From Tremella fuciformis (taxonomy: Eukaryota; Basidiomycota; Tremellomycetes; Tremellales; Tremellaceae): 64,000 bases of DNA. The notes under the pieces are model-generated. The model ran no database searches. It saw nothing but the letters and a program-made list of their open reading frames with translations, and was not told where the DNA came from. This document shows, piece by piece, positions 38,375 to 50,033 of this stretch. Made by a program: the position numbers and the translations under genes. The DNA lies in contig CP136493.1 in NCBI GenBank assembly GCA_032768795.1, forward strand, positions 806,001 through 870,000, written 5' to 3'. Position 1 is the first letter of the stretch, and every line of letters starts with the position of its first letter.

Positions 38375-39418
38375 ATGAACGGTGTCGCATTGGTAACGGG
38401 AGCTGCCTCAGGCGTGAGTCCCCCCACTGGCCTAGCTACGGACACACTGCAGGTATCTTCTGCCTTGGGGATCCGCTGGCACTCTGTCCAGCGAGCTGTA
38501 GCGACCAGCTTGCCTCGTAAGCCGGGCTGACTGCTAGATCGGCGCAGCATGCGTGTACGCCTTCGCCCAACGAGGCGTGACAGACTTCATCCTCGCCGAC
38601 ATACAACAGGCGGCTCTCGAGGCATTCGAGCAGGAGCTGCAGGCCAGCTTCCCGGCCGTCCGGATCCTGAGGGTCGTGTGCAATGTCACGGAGGAGACGT
38701 CGGTGGACGAGCTGGTGCGGCTGGGCGTGGAGCGATTTGGGCGGATCGACTTTGCCGTCAACTCGGCGGGCATCACCAACAAGAGTCTAGTGGGGGAGTA
38801 CGGGACCCAGGACGTGAGTCCTCTTCCCTCTGACGTCGAGGTCGTGCTGAGAGCAGTGGGACCGCGTGATCAATGTCAACCAGCGCGGAGTGTTCTTCTG
38901 CATGCGCGCACAGCTGGCGCAGATGGCGAAACAGGAGCTGCGGTCGTACTCGTTAGTCTCCAATTGCCGCCGCGCCCGACTTGGCTGAAGGGCAGGGGCG
39001 ACGCTCGCCGCGCACAACGGGGCGCCATCGTCAACCTGTGCTCGATCAACTCGTTCGTCGCGGCCAGACGGAATGCCGCTTATGTCACTTCGAAGCACGC
39101 GATCGTCGGTCTGACCAAGACGTGCGGGCTGGACTATGCCGAGCAGCGCATACGGTGCAACGGCGTCGCGCCGGGCTACGTGGCCACGGCGGTGAGTGAC
39201 GAGCGTTGATGGGTTGTGGCGGGGCTGACGGGCAGCTTACCCAGCTGCCGGGCAATATTGACGTGTTGCGCAAGTCGACACAGCCTGAGAAGACGCCGGC
39301 GGGACGACCGGGGCTGCCGGAGGAGATTGCGGATGTGGTGGTTTTTCTGTGTTCGGAGCAGGCGAGTTATGTGACGGGCTCGGTCTGGGAGGTCGACGGT
39401 GGTTTCTTGACGCTATGA
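38375..39418 (+). CDS. SDR-family oxidoreductase
   Basis: Five exons: 38375-38413, 38538-38813, 38857-38945, 38996-39191 and 39236-39418 (260 aa). Classical short-chain dehydrogenase signs: TGAASGIG cofactor loop at the first splice, NSAG, a Ser before YVTSK (the Tyr-x-x-x-Lys catalytic pair), GYVATA and a C-terminal [13 protein letters not shown]. It should oxidise or reduce a hydroxyl/keto group using NAD(P). Only about 240 bases separate it from the regulator upstream, and it converges on the BVMO gene. In such a setting it could feed a ketone to the BVMO. Its promoter contains GACGCCGGAC (38203-38212). Substrate is unknown. Confidence 0.92.
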
Positions 39419-39642: not shown

Positions 39643-42600
39643 CTAGTACTCGAACAGTTTGAGCCCATCTGCGTACTGCAGGTACCAGGTGTCGTTCCGG
39701 CCCTCCTTCTCCAGCAAAGTCAGCCCGTTGCCCCAATACGCGAAACGGTTCTTGTTCCAGTAAGACCATGCGAAGTCTTCCCAGCGCTACGCGTCAGCAT
39801 CTGCCCCACTAGGTAAATCGGCGGTGGCGCGTCGCCGATGGGGCGTAGCTCTGACTCCGGAAAATTTTGGACTTTTCATCTCTCATCTGTACATCTACAT
39901 CAGAATGGCTTTCCAGTCAGCTTTGTTCAAAAAAGCACTCAGGCAGCACCAGAGAGAGCAAAAAAAGCGACATCCCAACCCTCATGATGAGCACAAGCAT
40001 TCCTGCTCTCAACAAAGCCGCCCACAGCCAGTCAGACACTCTCCCTATCACCCACCCCAGCAACAATCCTACCTGCCTCCTGGGTCAGGCAAAGTCAATG
40101 GAGAGAAGAAGCCATGGGTGCCCAAAAGACCTGTTGTGAAGTCCTTGTGAGTCAGGCTCTCTCTTGGCATGACACAAAGCTGACTTGTAGCTTCAATGGT
40201 CCAGTCACCAATCCCCAGACCTTCAGATTGCCCTTGTGGAAAAGTAGGATGCTGGATTGGCTGAGGAAGATGAGAACACTCAGAGGAGGAGAAAGCCCAC
40301 CTGGAACTCCTCTCTTCACTCCTCCCCCCACCCCTGAGCCTCCTACCTGGTCAGATCCCCCAACTCCTGCTGCTGATGATCCTGTGTGGGATGATTACAG
40401 ACAGGAGATGGAGGCAGATAGAGGTAGTGTTAGTAGCTAGAGAGAGCACAATGACATGCATACACCCCATGAACTTGAGATTCAGCTGATGCATCAAACA
40501 CTCAGAGTCATGCTTGATCAACTTTTATTCAGTCTACCTATGCATTGTCATTCATCTTTTTCTCTATACATTTATTCTGTCATCTGAAGCATCTGACGTC
40601 TAGACGCATCCCTTGCTGCCAATACACGTCCTGATACTCCCCCCCTTCTACTCTCTGTGTTCAAGCTGTTCAATCTTGCCCAATCAAAGCCTGGCTTGAA
40701 AGCAAGGCCCTCCAGAGATCTTGCTCTTGAGATTGCCACAAATGTCAATCCCGTTGAGAAGTCGGCTGAACCAAGATCAATCACTGCCTTGTCCAGCGTC
40801 ATACCCTGTGATTTGTGTATGGTGATAGCAAATGCAAGCTGCAGTGGCAGCTGGCGTCGAGAGCACCGCTGCCCGTTTGTTGTCTCCCATCTGGCTGTAT
40901 GGGGCACAATGGGAACCAGTGGTATGTTGTCTGTGGTGTGCCAGGGTGTTGGTCCAGTGTAGGATGGGAAGGCGACCATGACCACAGAAGGAACAGATTG
41001 ATGAGGAGGCTCAGATGGTGAGAGCCCAATCTGATATACTGTGCCCCTGGTGCCATTGACCAATCCCTGCTCGATCCAGAGGTTGCGAGAAAGCATGACT
41101 TGAGCACCAATCATGAGGAAGACAGCAGGAGCAAGCCCCTGTGCCTGTTCCTCTGAAGCCTGGGCTGCTCCTACCCCTGTGTGCTGAGCCAGAGAGCGCA
41201 GTACAGGCTGTCCAGAGCGAGCCAAAGTGTGTAGGTTGATCTCGGAGACACTCTGCTTTGTTGCACAAAGACATACAGCATCTTGAAAGGCCTGCTGAGA
41301 TGCCGGGGAAAGGTTCCCCCAGAAGCGAGAGGACAGAAGGGTGTAGTCCTCCTGTTGAGGTGTCCCGGTGTGCAGGCGAGCAAGGGTTGCTTTGAAGGCA
41401 GTGGTGGTAGGGTCGGAGCCTTCCTGCCTCATAACAGCATCAAGCTGAACGCTCTCAGTGAAAGCAAGGTAGATATCTCGGCCAATGTTGCTGAGCCTGC
41501 CTAGATAGGAGGTTTTTGTCGAGCGTGCAGTGTTGTACAGTGGAGTGTCTCCCACAGGGGGCAGTTGACCAAAGTCGCCAATGAGCAGGACAGACAGACC
41601 GGCAAAGGGCAAGTACGCTGTCGACGGAAAGATTTGACCAAGAGCAAGGTTGATTCTCCCCAAGGCCGCCCTTCCAACCATGCTTTTCTCATCAATGATG
41701 AGGTATCGTGTCCCATGCCACTCTTCCTGGAGGCTGGCAAGCTTTCCCTCTCCAAGCTTGTCATGACTTTCCTCTATTGAGCCTCCAAGACCAAGGGCAG
41801 CATGGTATGTTGAACCAGCAATGTTGAATGCCGCCACACCCGTGGGGGCAAGCCGGCGGACAATGGGATTTGTGCTGAAGTCGAGATTGTTGTGCTGCCC
41901 AGATTGGAGCCCTTGAAGAGCTTGGGATATGGCGTCAATGAGGAAGGATTTGCCTGTTCCTGCTGTCCCATCGATGTTGAGGAGTATTTGAGGGACTGAC
42001 TCTCCAGAGAGCAGACGGTTGGCATGGCGCAAGACCTTGTCAAAGATGAGGCGCTGTGTGGTGTTGAGTAGTTGGGGATCGACAGTGTTGCGAGCTACAG
42101 AAGGCTGAGACTGCTTGGTCAGCTCACAGTATGCAGTGGATTGTAGGCCACTGCTCACCTTCTTGCGTTCGGTTTCTAAGTAGCTTGCCCTCTCTCCTAT
42201 ACCATCTGATCCCCACTCCCTCCCCACTGCTTCCCAATCGTGGGAAGTATCAATATCACGTGCTCCAAGCAGTGGCCCATTCCACCCATCTTCATCAAAC
42301 TGAGGGCCCATTCCAGCCAGAACTTGCCAGTCATCAAGCTCGTGGTCATTGACTTCTTCACCCTCAGAAAACTCTGAGTCACTGTCGTTTTCATTGTCAC
42401 CCTGTTGTTGACGGATGGGTCGCTTGGGCAATGTGTCTTGGTGCCCCTCTGGGTGGTCCTCAGTACAGCGAGAAAAAGCTTCTGTCCAGGATTCGTCATC
42501 AAGCTTGAGCTCTGAAGGGTGTCGATGAGGATGGTGGAGTAGTAACTTTGCCCGGCACCAGTTTTGGTGATCCTCAGACTGAGGGTCTGATGGATAATAC

Positions 42601-45600
42601 AGCGGCCAGAGAATGATGATCTTTGGGTGCTTCCTTCGAGTGGCGTTGTGACCTTGTTTCCGGTAGAATTGAAACCATTCGTACAGGCTGATGCCCTCAT
42701 GCTCTGGCTGGCGTGCCAAGTAGGCATCGTGCCAGTCTTGCTCCTCCACACCTTGGTCCAGTCCCTCATCTTCCTGCCTCTGCCTCAGGCGTCTCTGTCT
42801 CTTTTCCAGTATGCAGAGTGTGCCAAACTCTCGTGATGCAGACATCATATGTCGACCAAAGAGCTGATGACAGACTTCCTGAGCACTGTAATCCCTCTCG
42901 GTGACAATGCGGCTGAGCATCTTCTGGAAGACAATTCGTGAAGATGTTTCTTGCTCCAGGCGGGTTGAGATAGCCTGCATTATCTCGCCAAAGTTGTTGG
43001 ATGGTTTTTCGCATTTTGAAGCATACTTGGAGATGTAGGAGGCAACTGCACGGGGATCTGTGCATGGACTGATGTCGGAGTTGGCTCGCCATCCCAGTGC
43101 AGTGACTGCATTGTAACTGTTGAGGTGGGTGTCGTTGCGTGGTGTGATGAGTTGCTTGTTTCTGTTGGGATTGACAACCAGTCGGAGTTCTGTCTCCAGC
43201 TCCTTGGGGAACTTGAAGCGACAGACAAGCGGACTGTTGGGAGGAGATCCTTTTGGGCGGCGAAGACAATAGGCAGTGCACCTCGTGTGCCTCTGGACAC
43301 GGTTGAGCATCTGTGCCAGATCTTTGAAGCGAAAGATGATTTCGTCGCTACTGTGGGCAGAGGGGTGCTTTGGATGAGGCGGAATGTCCTCTCCAGGATT
43401 GATGGTTGACACTCTGGTGGACCAGAAGTCAAGGAATTCCTGGACACTGTCCGGATTGTTGATATCAAGGGTGTCTGGGGATGGCGCCCCCTTGAGCCAA
43501 ACCAGTCCATGGACATGGCTGGAGCCTCGATTTTGCCATTCAAAGCGATACCACCAGTCCTCTATTCCAAGCAGGGGTTTGAGGACCTTGGCCAAGAACA
43601 GCTCAAATCTTCGATAGAACCAGCAAGCTGCAATTGCTGGGTTCTCATTGACGTTCTTGGCATTGATGCGTTGTCGATCAGGTTCGCTCATAGTTGGTAG
43701 CGCTTGGTCCGGCATGTGGACGTGGAGATCTGGCCACTGAAGATCCGCAGCTGAGAATGTGATGAAAGCATGTGGAGTGCCCAGTTGACGGATCATTGCA
43801 GCAAGATTGCGACTCTGCTGTGCCCAGTAGGGTGGTGTTCCGGTTAAGGTGGCTGCTGATCGTCGCACTCGAGATGCCAGCTGCTTGGCTGGGTCGGACA
43901 CCATGGCAGCAATGTCTGCAGCAGAGAGGGCTCGGTCCTCTTCATTCCGGCTGACATAGAAGCAGGAGAGCCGTTTTGCTCGCCACCTCATGATGCAGTT
44001 GAAGGCATAATAGCTGACTGTCAGCTTGGCTTAATGCTGAGAGATGCACTCACCGGAATCGAGGGTGTTTTGCAAACCTTCCATCCTGATAGTAGAGCAG
44101 GTGACGGAAGTAGTCTGAATCACGTATTGTGGTAGGCCGTTGTTGATGCAGATCCCCCTGGCCGGTGGGGAAGAGGAAGGGGAAGGCCTTGGTGAGGAAT
44201 GGGTTGCTGATGTCGTGCTCATTGATTGGAGTGGAATGCAGCACAGGTCCAGTGAGGAGCAGGGGTGCTGGTGGTCCTCCATCCACCACCTGTTCCAGTG
44301 CTTCCCGGATCTCCTCCACAATATTGTTGCCTTCTCCAAGGTTTGGTATAGCCAGCTCTGGCAAGCTTGTCTCCTCTGCTGACTCCTGCTCAACTGGCCC
44401 AGTGTCAGGCTCAGGTGCGCTGTACTGCACCTCCTCCAAGTTGACAGACCGCAGCTGATGGAAGACAGAACCGTTTTCAGGAAGGGAATTGATTGCTTCC
44501 CAGTTGATCTCGACATTCTGAAAGGCTGGATGGAAGTGTTGTAGTGCTTGCAGGTTTGCGAGAATGCGTGACCGCTGGACTTGGAACTCTGGTCGGCGTG
44601 CAAAATCCTCTGAGGGATTGGCAGCGTTGGCGGGGGCTTGGGCATTTGTCGGCTTGATGATGAGAACATCAAGGTCGGTGACGGTGAGGGGAAGTCGAGA
44701 GAGGAATCTGCCACTGTCATGGGCATAGAGACAGGTGTGGCCTCCGTATTTGGTTTGTCCACCACCAACGCGCCATGTTTGAAGCAGCACATGGTAGGGA
44801 GAGAGGAGCATCTCTTCCACCTGTGAGGGCAAGTCAGGGACTGCTCTGCCAGCTGCACGGCACAGTTCCTGCAGAGAAGGACCTGTGAAGTCAGTCATGA
44901 GAAGCACATACAATCCTGGACACTGACCTGGATCCATACAGTTGGCAGATGTCCATTTCTCCCCATCAATTTGACAACGTGAACATTTACCCTGTTGGAC
45001 CTTGAGTCCAAACCATTTCTCATTGCAGTTCTCGCAAGTCTCCATCGTCTCAGCTGCCATTGCTGAGTGGAAGTCCCCAATACACCCAATGGCAGCTTCA
45101 GAGAGGCAGATGTCGTCAAGATCGTTGGGTGTTGCAGGAATGGGCAGGAAGGCATTGCCCAGCATGTCGACTGAGAGGGATGACTGAGTTGACTGTTGTC
45201 GACGATGATAGGCTGCTCTGGAGGATTCGCGACAGGTGCTGCAAGTCTTGAAGCGGCGAGAGGCTGTCCCTGCTTGGAGAAACTCGGAATGTTCTTTCCA
45301 GGTCTTGCACTTGAAGCAGCGTGACTGTCCAGCATGGCGATCCAGGCGTGGTGGTGGGGCTGGTGGCTGTTCTGTGACTCGGTGTGCAGCACCTTGAGGC
45401 GGGCTGGGCGGAGTGGCGTAGGGCAGTTGAGGTGCACGTCTGGTTCGTGTGGGGCGGCCAAGCTCTACAGGATGTAGATCCTGGTTGCGACGTGGTGTTG
45501 GTGAGGTGACCTCATGGCGCGGGCGTGGAAGACCTCTCTGTGTACCAGGCGTAGGCTGAGAGCCTGGGGTGACTGGTGGCAATGGCCGGGTTGTGCGAGT

Positions 45601-48396
45601 GGGTGTGCCTGGCGCTGATTGGGAGTGATGCTGCTCCAAGCAAGATTGGCATGTGTTGCGTGGGCGACCTCGATTGTCTCGAAATCGAGGAGTGGCAAAG
45701 GTGAAGCCACATTTGATGCACTCAGCATGACCATGCCGTGACCGGGGTGTTGCAAGTGGGACTGGCGGTTGTTTGCGACAGAAGGAGCATGTTTTGAAGA
45801 AGTCGCTGCTGCCCCGCCCTGAAGAAGCCTTCCGAAAGTGATCACCATTGAGAGTTGTGTGCTGACCCAAACAGCGTTGGCCTCGAGAGCAGTGCATTGC
45901 TGCAATATCTGGGACTTTCTGCATCAGTATGTGCATGCATCGCTTGAAGGCAAAGCTCACATTGATGTTATGGACAAGCCAACACTTGATCATGCATCAA
46001 CTTGCAAGAAGTTCAGCTGTACTCATCAGCCCATGCATGCATGACAGAAGAATGGGCGACTTACAGTGGGTCCAAAGTTAGGCATGCAATAGGAAGTGAG
46101 AAGATTAGGTGTGCAAGGCAAGCCAGGCAGCCTGAAATCTCTAAGTGCTCCGGAATTTCTTTATTTGATCCCCCCACATAAACAGTCAAACTGCCAGGGC
46201 TTCGCCAGATTTGAGTAGAGAGGGGGATGAGGATGAAAATTCAAAGTCCCCTCCACCCTTATACCCAGCCTGCCGGAAAATTTTTATTTGGCCCCCCCCA
46301 CTTACCGTTTTCGTTCCAGGGACACCCGCAGAATTCAGCACCGTAAGAGCTACGCTGATCATTGGGGATCGGCAGGACTGACCGGATCCATGAGAAGCGC
46401 GAAAAAGTGTAAGCGTCCACCGGGGTGCAAGGCAAGCACCTGTCCGTCCACCGAGCCATTCTTGAACCAGCTGCTGCAGTTGTCCGTCCACACGGTGATC
46501 TCGAGCTGCTTCTGGGTGTGCTCGGCATATTCGTCCAGCGCCTCCTGGGTGATGGCGACCGTCTTGATCGCCTCTGTCTGCATGCGGCGGAGCATCTTGA
46601 CCACATAGTCGGAGATGCGCTCGATAGAGACGATGATGGAGCCTTGGGCGGAAGGGGCCCCTGGGCCGAGCAGGGTCACGTAGTTCGGGAAGGAGGGGCC
46701 GGCGAACATGGACAGGTAGGCTGTGGGCGACTTGGCCCAGTGGTCTTGCAGGTTGAGACCGTCGGTGCCGATGACGGGGAAGCGGGGTCGGAAGGAGACG
46801 TCAAAGCCGGTCGCGCAGATGATGATGTCGAACTCGTGGTGCTTGCCATCGGCTGTCACGAGGCCAGTGGCATCGGCGTGGTCGATGCTGCTCATCAGTA
46901 AGGTCTCAAGCTTGAGTAGCTGGACTGACCCCTCGAACTCAGCTGTCACGTTCGGCGCCTGAAGCGCCGCGAGGAAGCCTGGTCCGGGTGTTGGCCTAAA
47001 AGTAAAGTAAGCTCCCGGTGATCTTGGACGATGAGAAGACTTGCCTTCTGCAACCTACGCCAAACTCGGGATGCACTCTGTCATAAATGTCCGGACGGTT
47101 GGCCAGCTCTTTTCGCATGCTCTCGCTCCAGGCAGCATAGATGTCCTTCTGCTCGCGCGAGCCTTTGAAGACGTATCCAAACCGCTTGTTCGCCAACGAT
47201 TCCAGCTCGCGGCAATACCTGCCAGATCAGCCCAGCCACCTCGCTGGAGCGCACGGCTCACTCAAGGTGTTCTTCCGGGTGTTTCTTATACCGCTCGATC
47301 GTCTGGGGGCTGAGGAGCTCTCCCTCTCGCGGCGGAGCGACCCAAGTCTTGCTTCGAATGAAGACTGTACAGCTGCCCACGTCCTCCTGGATATTCGGCA
47401 GGACCTGGATGGCGCTACTGCCAATCCCGATCAACCCCACTCGCTTGCCCTTTAGGTCGACACCATCCGGCCAGCTCGCAGTGTGCAGGAGCGTGCCCTT
47501 GAAGTCGTGTAGACCTCTGATGGCCGGCCACCGCCAGTGGTTGAGCAGCCCAGATCCGTTGATGAGCACGTCGCAGGTGTCCTCGAGGGTCCCTTCGTCG
47601 TTCTTGACTGCCACTGTCCACTTGGCCGTCGTTGCGTCAAATCGAGCACCAACAACCTCGTGCGAGAGCCGGAAGTATTGGCGCAAGTTGAAGTGATCTA
47701 CCACATCTTGCATACTGCCAGTCAGCCCCGCTTCTCCTCTCCTGGTCAATCTTGCCCACTATTCCTGGATCTCGCCTCCGGACGAAAAGCTACATCGTCA
47801 GCGCTGTGCTTGTTCCAACTCTGTCATACTGACACCCTTGTCCAGTCGGCCTTTAGCCGGTATGTGAAGGCGTAGCCGTGCGAGTTGGTATCGCACGCGA
47901 CTCCAGGATACCGATTCTCATACCACGTCCCGCCGATCTCGGGGTTCTTCTCGTACGCCTGAATCCGTCAGATACGCGTCTCCCACCTCAGTCGTACAAC
48001 TCACGACAAACTCCATGTCTTTGAGGTGCGACTGCACCTTGTACCTTCACATCAGCCTCAAAACCACTGCACCGTTCGACACGTCGGCCCTGTGGAACCG
48101 GCCACTCACGCCATGTTGATGCCGCTCGGGCCGGCTCCAATGCAGATCACCTTCAGCTTGCGCCTCGTCCCCAGAGGCTGGTTGAGCAGCTTGTACGACC
48201 CATCATCCGCGCGAGATGAGAATGGCTCATCAGTTGTTGGTGAGAACAGGTCGTCGAGCGCCGCCGCCGGTGCCGCTACCGGCGGTGACGAGACGATTTT
48301 GGCTTTTAGAGAAGGCGAGATGTCGCTCGGCGGGGAAGAGACAGCCACTGCTATAGGCGCCATCGTGCTGAGATCTTTACTGAACGTTGCCATCAA
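39643..48396 (-). CDS. Flavin monooxygenase, Baeyer-Villiger type, last intron carrying a Helitron
   Basis: Nine exons on the minus strand: 48396-48110, 48044-48005, 47958-47834, 47789-47760, 47714-47262, 47218-47045, 46995-46930, 46887-46383 and 39786-39643 (607 aa). Motifs: FAD site [20 protein letters not shown], the BVMO fingerprint [14 protein letters not shown] (F-x-G-x3-H-x3-W-P), the NADPH site [22 protein letters not shown], and ATGFD. The final exon supplies [20 protein letters not shown], which completes the BVMO C-terminus exactly after ...FFALLMDP. Intron 8 (46382-39787) is 6,596 nt because a 6,550-bp Helitron lies within it. Intron 6 is GC-AG. Expected reaction: ketone to ester or lactone with O2 and NADPH. 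Whether the giant intron is still spliced is unknown. MetMet at the start leaves two possible initiators. Confidence 0.9.
39817..39839. repeat. Helitron 3' terminal hairpin
   Basis: Seven-bp perfect stem ATCGGCG/CGCCGAT with a 9-nt loop, followed on the element strand by TTACCTAG. Such a hairpin close to a CTRR end signals termination of rolling-circle transfer in Helitrons. Confidence 0.8.
39843..39855 (+). repeat. Helitron inverted repeat, 3' side copy
   Basis: GCGTAGCTCTGAC read on the plus strand. It matches the 5' copy at 46355-46343 (minus, GCGTAGCTCTTAC) at 12 of 13 positions. On this side it lies internal to the hairpin, so the pair is asymmetric. Confidence 0.7.
39905..40440 (+). 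CDS. Helitron accessory or captured gene, unknown
   Basis: Two exons, 39905-40146 and 40191-40440, joined by a 44-nt intron (GTGAGT donor, CTGACTTGTAG end) into 163 codons in frame. It lies inside the transposon, antisense and convergent to the Rep/helicase gene. The protein starts [20 protein letters not shown], is rich in Gln, His and Pro, then has a basic helix ([18 protein letters not shown]). It ends in a Pro-Thr-rich acidic tail ([19 protein letters not shown]). No known domain is seen. The intact spliced frame suggests it is expressed. It could be a transposon accessory protein or captured cargo. Confidence 0.65.
40572..45993 (-). CDS. Helitron Rep/helicase transposase
   Basis: Three exons on the minus strand: 45993-44928, 44882-44054 and 44013-40572 (1,778 aa from the first [11 protein letters not shown] at about 45899 is an alternative start). 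The N-terminus has several Cys-x2-Cys pairs (CSFCRKQ, CIKCGF ... CQSC, CFKCKTW ... CSTC, CENC ... CSRC), probably zinc fingers. A DUF6570-like part around MDPGPSLQEL follows. The Rep domain carries the HUH motif ([12 protein letters not shown]) and the two-tyrosine helix ([11 protein letters not shown]). The C-terminal third is a PIF1-type helicase: Walker A GTAGTGKS, Walker [33 protein letters not shown] and VAISRARS. The frame is open throughout and all catalytic motifs are present, so the element may be autonomous. Confidence 0.93.
46148..46335. repeat. Imperfect direct repeats near the Helitron 5' end
   Basis: Two blocks, about 46148-46215 and 46272-46335, share the order CCGGAA, T-rich, TATTTG, C-run, CAC, then CCAGGG and a CGC-AGA-TT end. 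A CCGGAAAATTTT match also occurs at the opposite end near 39857. They are probably subterminal protein-binding or structural repeats of the element. Confidence 0.45.
46343..46355 (-). repeat. Helitron inverted repeat, 5' side copy
   Basis: GCGTAGCTCTTAC on the minus strand, beginning 3 nt from the 5' terminus TCA. It pairs with 39843-39855. Confidence 0.7.
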
Positions 48397-48975
48397 TCGC
48401 AGTCGAGTCAGTCATGCATCTCCTATGTACTTTGCCATCAAGCTCGAGTCAGGCGTGCATGCATCACCCGGCCTCTCAGCCCAAGACGGCGAATAGGATC
48501 GATCGACTACAAGATTTAGACGCCGGCCGCTGCTAGGATCACCCGGCGTCATTTTCTTACAACTGAGCAGATGGAACGCAGCCGCTTATTCTGGGGTAAG
48601 ACGATCCAGCAGAACCACCAGCAGCGGGCCAGCATTGCTGTGAGCTATGCTGTCTCTGGCAACGCCCTCGGCGGTGCCCGACGCCCCGCCCTTGCACCCC
48701 AAACGATCTGGACGCCGGTCCGGTTCGACGCCGCTAGGCTAGTCGTTCCTATGACTGCGCAGGGAGAGATCGTTCAAGACTGGCGCACGCGGATCAGGGG
48801 GCCGGCGCAGCGTTCATGATAAGGTCTGCGGGCCTACCCGACGCTTCTGAAGTCCGTGTCGACCGCACAGACAGCGTCCGTGGAGGTGTGTGTCGTCACG
48901 GCCGCCTCATCAGCTACTGTACCACTGCTGCCTGCGCCCCCAGCATCGCCAGCTCAGCAAAAGCACATCGGCAGC
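48397..48975. promoter_or_regulatory. Bidirectional promoter, BVMO / second SDR
   Basis: A 579-base divergent region. It holds the octamer GACGCCGG three times: 48519-48526 (plus), 48543-48550 (complement) and 48711-48718 (plus, within GACGCCGGTC). A near copy, GACGCCGC, starts at about 48727. The same core stands before the regulator and the first SDR. A frame on the plus strand from 48856 reaches the SDR start, but the extra residues look like non-coding sequence. Confidence 0.5.
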
Positions 48976-50033
48976 ATGGCGCTCACCAACGGCACCCCTC
49001 GACCCAAAGTCGCGATCGTCACGGGCGCCGCGCAAGGTATAGGCGCGGCCATCTCGGCTCGGCTCGCCAAGGAGGGCTACGACATTGCACTGGTCGACCT
49101 GCCCACTTCGCAAGCGGCGCTGGCAAATGTGGCCAGGGAGGTCGAGACGCATGGCGTGAAGACAGTGTGCTTGGCGGCCGATGTGAGCCAGGAGGCAGAT
49201 GTGGTGGCCATGGTGCAGGGCGCGGTTGACCACCTGGGGAGGCTGGACGGTCAGTCCGGCGCTTTGCGTGCCAAGGGGGCGCTGAGGAGACAGTCATGGT
49301 GGCCAACGCGGGCATCGCGCCGGTCTGCCCGTTCCTCGAGATGACCCCCGGGTTGCTGGACAAGGTGTACTCGGTCAATGTAAGAGGCGTATTCTTGTGT
49401 TATCGCGAAGCGGCAAAGGTGCTCGTTGCGCAAGGCCAGGGAGGCCGCTTGATCGGTGCGTTCGACTGGGTATTTATGAAGCTTGGCTGACGAGGCAGCC
49501 GCTTGCTCCACCTCTGGTGTCAGTTGTACGGCATCTCAAAGACGCAGCTCATGTCCAGCTCCGAACAGGTCCAAACGTCTCGGGCTACTGCGCGTCCAAG
49601 TTTGCTGTTCGGGCGCTCAATCAGGGCGCAGCGGTCGAGTTGGGTCAGTACAAGATCACGGCGAACGTCTACTGTCCCACGGTTGTGGAGACGGAGATGT
49701 GGGAGAAGATTGACGCTACTATCACCTCCATGCAAGGACGAGAGAAGGGGTCGTACACGGTCGAGGTGGGTGCGACACACTCTGATGACAGCGCTTACAA
49801 GTGCAGCGTGCCAATAGGGTCCCGCTTGGTCGCAATGCTACTCCTCAGGACATCGCCTCCATGGTAGCGTGCGTATCGGGCACAGTTTGGACATGTAGCT
49901 TTAGCTCATCTTAGCTTCCTGGCGAGCGAGGATGCTTCTTTTGTCACTGGGCAAGCCATGCAAGTGACAGTACGTGACACCGTATCTGAGAGGGGGTCCA
50001 ACTGACATGCAGGGTGGAGACTGGCTTTCCTAG
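48976..50033 (+). CDS. SDR-family oxidoreductase (diacetyl/acetoin reductase-like)
   Basis: Seven exons: 48976-49249, 49294-49455, 49499-49518, 49559-49765, 49792-49868, 49915-49969 and 50013-50033 (271 aa). Signs: TGAAQGIG cofactor loop, NAGIAP, a Ser-rich strand (AACSTSG) with the catalytic Ser, and YCASK with Tyr/Lys. NVYCPTVVETEMWEKID, as in acetoin/diacetyl and sorbitol reductases, and a terminal QVTGGDWLS follow. The start at 48976 fits the family; the frame is open to an ATG at 48856. Two exons are very small (20 and 21 nt). It is transcribed away from the BVMO and shares its promoter, so both probably act on the same carbonyl substrate. Confidence 0.92.

Follow-up and report, generated by a model that had tools for sequence, protein, structure and literature searches.

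Introduction

Known Helitrons insert by rolling-circle strand transfer. In the maize sh2-7527 allele, such an element reportedly lies within an intron and has a null effect.

The published systems closest to the one described here are cited from excerpts of the respective papers. For sh2-7527 these cover the termini of the element and the causative mutation (PMC2267711, PMC1657028). The maize case resembles ours in that a whole Helitron with canonical ends is found inside a gene, but it concerns a plant gene and a stable mutation, whereas here the host intron measured 46 nt and any effect on the gene is a prediction from sequence. HELPO1 and HELPO2 of Pleurotus ostreatus likewise reside in a basidiomycete and have in common with our element an autonomous RepHel with introns, a hairpin and a CTRR-type end. 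AT specificity is reported for them, whereas our family accepts A, G or T at −1 and has an invariant T at −3; no HELPO copy inside a host intron is mentioned in the excerpts (PMC4289320). FoHeli1 and FoHeli2 of Fusarium oxysporum reportedly prefer to insert between TNAT and A; shifting the ambiguous terminal T, a step of our own, turns this into TNA|T, close to the TND|T found here. The FoHeli report also describes nesting, as in our genome, along with multiple 5′ ends, but the termini of these elements are non-canonical, in contrast to the canonical 3′ CTAG of our family (PMC5148889). Bat Helraiser also has TC...CTAG ends and forms circles with head-to-tail junctions; it differs in its AT target, with T at −3 unmentioned in the excerpts, and in being a reconstructed element rather than a natural, current burst (PMC4778049). 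The wheat Xuan-Feng Helitrons, an active family, are canonical like ours, and many new insertions have been described for them together with site logos, but they show a marked AT preference, and T at −3 goes unmentioned in the excerpted text, logos aside (PMC13286980). A literature search by titles and abstract openings found no published Helitron in a fungal host intron, which is weak evidence.

Here, we analyse a 64,000-nt stretch of the Tremella fuciformis genome (the window; contig C4, 806001-870000, in a genome of 28.14 Mb in 11 contigs). Positions refer to the window unless a contig is named. The initial annotation had placed a whole Helitron within one intron of an otherwise intact Baeyer-Villiger monooxygenase (BVMO) gene. 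Insertion of a transposon into an intron is a known kind of event, and the setting here is unusually clean.

Results

A predicted monooxygenase gene with a 6.6-kb last intron

The corrected model of the BVMO-type gene comprises nine exons encoding 606 amino acids from ATG 48393 (Table 1). We aligned the product with 11 relatives (P0001-P0010 and P0014), taken from the best 120 of 836 matches. Nine of the 11 start at the residue matching the next ATG, 48363, so the protein may begin there and have 596 residues. Among the matches listed, the closest full-length relatives come from Kwoniella and Cryptococcus sp. DSM 104549 (63-66% identity). A Pfam profile search with the exon-5 frame matched PF00743 (E 5.7e-09), while searches with the exon-8 frame and with exon 9 alone gave no match; the cyclohexanone monooxygenase 3ucl in the PDB matched the protein with E 1.1e-60. 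The BVMO/FMO-like signature consists of two GxGxx[G/A] motifs and an FxGxxxHxxxW fingerprint, and the corrected protein has both motifs and the fingerprint. We assign the gene product as a predicted Baeyer-Villiger-type, FMO-like monooxygenase.

Introns 1-7 measure 65, 46, 44, 45, 43, 49 and 42 nt. Three of the gene's eight introns have GTCAGT as donor, and in this respect the one starting at 46382 is typical. One intron, 47044-46996, has a GC donor (GCAAGT). A 620-residue model with 14 extra residues before IDHAD was rejected: these residues are missing from all 11 relatives and are explained by the 42-nt intron 7, which the initial annotation had missed. The longest match elsewhere in the genome, a paralogue at C1:5837965-5839617 with a 580-residue open frame and 31-36% identity, was too distant to inform intron position.

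Table 1 Features of the monooxygenase gene and the Helitron within it, in order along the gene.
Feature	Position in window	Strand	Remarks
BVMO-type gene	39643..48393	-	corrected model; ATG 48393 to TAG ending 39643
BVMO exon 1	48110..48393	-	ATG 48393; relatives suggest ATG 48363
BVMO exons 2-6 and introns 1-6	46996..48109	-	corrected gene model
BVMO introns 1-6	48109-48045, 48004-47959, 47833-47790, 47759-47715, 47261-47219, 47044-46996	-	
BVMO exon 7	46930..46995	-	corrected gene model
BVMO intron 7, 42 nt, GTCAGT..CTGATGAGCAG	46888..46929	-	alignment with 11 relatives
BVMO exon 8, C-terminal letters ...FFALLMDP, last exon ahead of the Helitron	46383..46887	-	
BVMO intron 8, 6,596 nt, phase 0, Helitron inside	39787..46382	-	
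5′ part of the original intron, 24 nt	46359..46382	-	GTCAGT donor; in-frame TGA at end
Helitron, 6,550 bp, gene-sense orientation	39809..46358	-	5′ TC, 3′ CTAG
RepHel, N-terminal part of frame with DUF6570 (PF20209)	44054..45996	-	start codon left unassigned
RepHel predicted intron, 40 nt, GTGAGT..CTGACAGTCAG	44014..44053	-	
RepHel: Helitron_like_N, HVH and YISKYASK motifs, PIF1 helicase	40572..44013	-	stop 40574-40572
3′ subterminal hairpin, 7-bp stem, 9-nt loop	39817..39839	-	8 nt from end
3′ part of the original intron, 22 nt	39787..39808	-	branch site CTGAC (39797-39793); TAG acceptor
BVMO exon 9, ...LFEY*, 47 aa	39643..39786	-	alignment with relatives

The initial annotation held that the reading frame stops at ...FFALLMDP with a GTCAGT donor and that the missing C-terminus lies 6.6 kb away behind an acceptor, with both intron ends in phase 0. 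The corrected model agrees on phase and, to the base, on the donor (46382) and the acceptor (39787). All 11 relatives align without a gap across the MDP|RWED junction and onwards through exon 9, the alignment that had been proposed as a check, and ten exon-9 residues are invariant in the 12 sequences (R574, E576, D577, Y582, N586, R587, G592, N593, G594 and E599 in the numbering of the 620-residue query). The C-terminal PR[WY]ED, common to the 11 relatives, is encoded by the exon behind the Helitron. A chance open frame was rejected on this alignment, which identifies the exon as the true C-terminus of the protein.

Subtracting the 6,550-nt Helitron from the 6,596-nt intron leaves 46 nt (24 + 22). 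The exact junctions bear out this earlier calculation, as well as the remark that 46 nt is a usual intron size, the seven other introns of the gene measuring 42-65 nt. The remnant runs from the GTCAGT donor at 46382 to a CTGAC branch site 7 nt ahead of its end, then TAG (acceptor ...GCTGACGCGTAG, ending at 39787). The Helitron, starting with TCAGCG (46358) and ending with ...CTAG (39809), is flanked by A and T, and its site reads TGA|T. As annotated, it sits between donor and branch site; donor, branch site and acceptor are all untouched and no duplication is present at the junction. The remnant cannot be an exon, as its length is not divisible by three and a TGA lies in frame seven codons past MDP. 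An unspliced transcript would stop there and forfeit the last 47 residues, the cost foreseen in the annotation. Because the remnant has splice signals and cannot be coding, and because exon 9 is conserved, the Helitron appears to have gone into an already existing 46-nt, phase-0 intron. Of 1,784 TND|T positions in the window, 1.57% fall within a strict donor/branch/acceptor arrangement, and at the BVMO site this arrangement in addition links two conserved coding parts in phase. The stretch 39655-39808, covering most of exon 9 and the preceding 22 nt, matches a single place in the genome, which excludes a second copy or empty allele of exon 9 in the assembly.

The inserted element

The whole Helitron of the annotation was recovered as an element with the predicted features of a canonical autonomous Helitron. 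RepHel matches the Pfam profiles Helitron_like_N (E 8.5e-32) and PIF1 (E 1.2e-19), and contains HVH and YISKYASK, which we take to be its Rep motifs (HUH Rep). Its closest named relatives are Tremella mesenterica proteins (50-53% identity), and another relative is 90% identical over 55% of the query. The folding energy of the 3′ hairpin is unexceptional (z −0.93; matched by 29 of 200 shuffles), and energy alone does not support the hairpin. A target site duplication is absent: the 46-nt intron is exactly restored, and no constant-length duplication was found in 38 sites compared by eye.

Copy number and an apparently recent burst

The whole genome was searched with two end patterns, up to two mismatches being allowed. 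This yielded 47 5′ ends (TCAGCG...) and 48 3′ ends (...CTAG), all with zero mismatches. Judged by end spacing, 47 copies are full-length, at 6,549 nt except for the window copy (6,550) and L038 (6,933). A solitary 3′ end, C9:723721-723750, has no matching 5′ end. With a 1-kb inner probe, each of the 40 places scored (of 53 candidates) gave a match, three with full score and 37 one mismatch lower. Eighteen of the 21 fully read copies (20 fetched, plus the window's) are letter-identical. The window copy has one additional G in a G run. L038 (C2:739848-746780) has a 384-nt insert in all after position 271, with positions 267-271 on both sides, as with a 5-bp target duplication; the remainder is identical.

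Of the 40 places scored, three have an A at the position equivalent to 42649, namely the window copy, L034 and C4:1121561-1122561 (L017, C4:1120061-1124061); the base is G in five other copies compared letter by letter. The BVMO copy thus belongs to a small sublineage within the burst. Taken at face value, the identity of 18 of 21 copies suggests that the burst is very recent; assembly polishing could make copies seem more alike than they are. Copies at C7:1086593, 1110261 and 1133929 are spaced exactly 23,668 bp apart. This spacing suggests a segmental repeat in tandem, containing two Helitrons, or else a repeat created in assembly; the 5′ flanks of the first two copies (L004 and L002) differ.

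A strict insertion rule

The genome-wide patterns have T at −3 in 47 of 47 5′ ends and T at +1 after 48 of 48 3′ ends, the solitary end C9:723721 counting only in the latter tally. Of the 47 copies, 27 have A at −1, 12 have G and 8 have T, while C does not occur there; the BVMO copy sits at A|T. Both sides were read for 38 of the 47 copies. The other nine were used only for the pattern bases (C5:1750844-1757392; C6:1165912-1172460, whose 3′ side in L016 is unused; C7:1123182-1129730; C7:1133929-1140477; C7:1345125-1351673; C7:1410738-1417286; C7:1619011-1625559; C8:609712-616260; C8:641096-647644). L002 and L004 have a common 3′ flank, from the 23,668-bp repeat, and are not fully independent. 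T is found at −3 and at +1 in all 38 sites. The 24 sites outside Helitrons have T at −3 in every case, in flanks with a T content of 21.7%. The insertion rule of the family is TND|T, and it is strict. With 47 nearly identical Helitrons at mapped sites and an invariant T at −3, the family is a clean natural data set on canonical Helitron targeting.

The Helitron's own end, CTAG|T, fits the rule. We tentatively suggest, at somewhat less than even confidence, that the transposase may pick targets as likenesses of its own 3′ terminus, TND|T being CTAG|T reduced to T(−3) and T(+1). If true, this would explain resident Helitron 3′ ends as insertion points, and would put the BVMO intron copy at a plain TGA|T.

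Sites were also scored for coding character with a codon model from 15 ORFs (17,457 nt), which is small and serves group comparison only. Scores above 6 were rarer at the 38 sites (5%) than at control positions (35% of 3,000 TND|T positions drawn from the window, 25% of 3,602 from distal flanks), and insertions into coding sequence are thus fewer than expected, through selection or preference. The figure for the 24 sites outside Helitrons was 8%, a weaker difference from the two controls (P 0.003 and 0.04).

Helitrons within Helitrons

Another Helitron is involved at 14 of the 38 sites. Five (L031, L036, L044, L049 and L005) directly follow the last base of a 683-bp non-autonomous Helitron at its 3′ end, and L034 and L035 lie 3 and 10 nt past such an end. 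Position 114 of the 683-bp family is hit by L025, L029, L041 and L042, and position 94 by L063 and L006. The 5′ end of this smaller element is 85% identical over 87 nt, and its 3′ end has 210 genome matches at up to two mismatches. One site lies behind the 3′ end of our own family: at C1:3754297-3767394 (L028, L029), two full copies are joined head to tail with zero bases between them, behind 114 nt of the 5′ end of the 683-bp family. The identical copies together with this pair are consistent with rolling-circle transposition. The junctions at positions 114 and 94 recur with different surroundings. Such repeated identical junctions could mark a hot spot or, alternatively, composite units moving together, as excerpts of the FoHeli report propose for those elements (PMC5148889); adjacent Helitrons are known in maize, according to excerpts of another (PMC2267711).

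Effect on the gene and alternative explanations

The BVMO exons are intact in sequence, yet the enzyme keeps its C-terminus only if the cell splices out the 6.6-kb intron. The explanation that we consider probable as a whole is that, in a very recent burst, a canonical autonomous Helitron entered the TGA|T site in the 46-nt, phase-0 last intron, presumably by the rolling-circle strand transfer of known Helitrons. The spliceosome would then have to bridge 6,596 nt of same-sense element with poly(A)-signal-like hexamers. Most transcripts would end in the Helitron or keep it, giving a protein that stops seven residues past MDP and lacks the conserved last 47 residues; a correctly spliced minority is possible, and the intron location would reflect chance TND|T insertion outside coding sequence. 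Fungal poly(A) signals are degenerate; AATAAA occurs four times in sense orientation in the Helitron, at 46288, 46165, 40576 and 40529, and never in antisense, a small count. Mainly truncated or chimeric transcripts are to be expected because in Cryptococcus neoformans, another species than the Helitron host, splicing is best for introns of 40-60 nt and poor, even in wild type, for introns of more than 500 nt, according to excerpts of that study (PMC11913375). Reduced or lost full-length enzyme appears more likely than normal splicing.

The initial annotation had raised the prospect of a natural intron enlargement, in which the 6.6-kb intron is spliced normally, tolerated, and the enzyme is fully functional. 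The anatomy behind this idea stood: the Helitron, the 46-nt intron, the splice signals and exon 9 are all as proposed. Every splice signal is undamaged and in phase, and within the Helitron the nearest strict branch-plus-acceptor site (46029) lies about 350 nt away from the donor, so correct splicing is possible. The step to function fared less well, because in so young a family intact exons are no evidence of function; the C. neoformans data argue against it too, as do five donor-like and ten branch-plus-acceptor-like sites on the sense strand of the element, although antisense counts of 2 and 12 reveal no clear sense-strand enrichment of splice-like sites. We regard fully normal splicing as unlikely. 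Since the insertion altered nothing but the length and content of the intron, leaving splice signals, exons and frame as they were, the locus would show whether a spliceosome accustomed to the 42-65 nt introns of this gene can remove one of 6.6 kb. That the insertion is an artefact of assembly is scarcely credible. Nearly identical repeats misassemble easily, and there are 47 copies, but both junctions coincide exactly with the ends of the Helitron, at a TND|T site, the flanks are two halves of one gene with a last exon matched nowhere else, and the A at 42649 is found at only two other places of the 40 scored.

The remaining alternative concerns the location: the family might prefer introns or use splice-site-like sequence as its target. 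The BVMO copy itself is inside an intron, some targets (L063 and L006) read CTGA|T and so resemble a branch site, and a loose intron rule held for 11 sites out of 38, where its rate among 1,784 controls, 17.2%, would give 6.5. However, the strict rule picked out one site of 38, that in the BVMO gene, against 1.57% of the same controls (0.6 expected), and we rejected clear intron targeting by the family. Five of the ten other loose matches (L025, L029, L042, L049 and L005) are at Helitron-associated sites, the other five being L027, L037, L039, L040 and L055, and L063 and L006 are inside a second Helitron. We therefore hold such targeting to be very improbable; the loose rule is compatible with a mild intron preference. 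TND|T and the scarcity of coding insertions would suffice for occasional insertion into introns without any preference, and the location of the BVMO copy looks like a chance draw among TND|T sites outside coding sequence.

Short-chain dehydrogenase reading frames lie on either side of the BVMO gene (38538-39209 and 48823-49344, both on the plus strand), and the three together are perhaps a small catabolic cluster.
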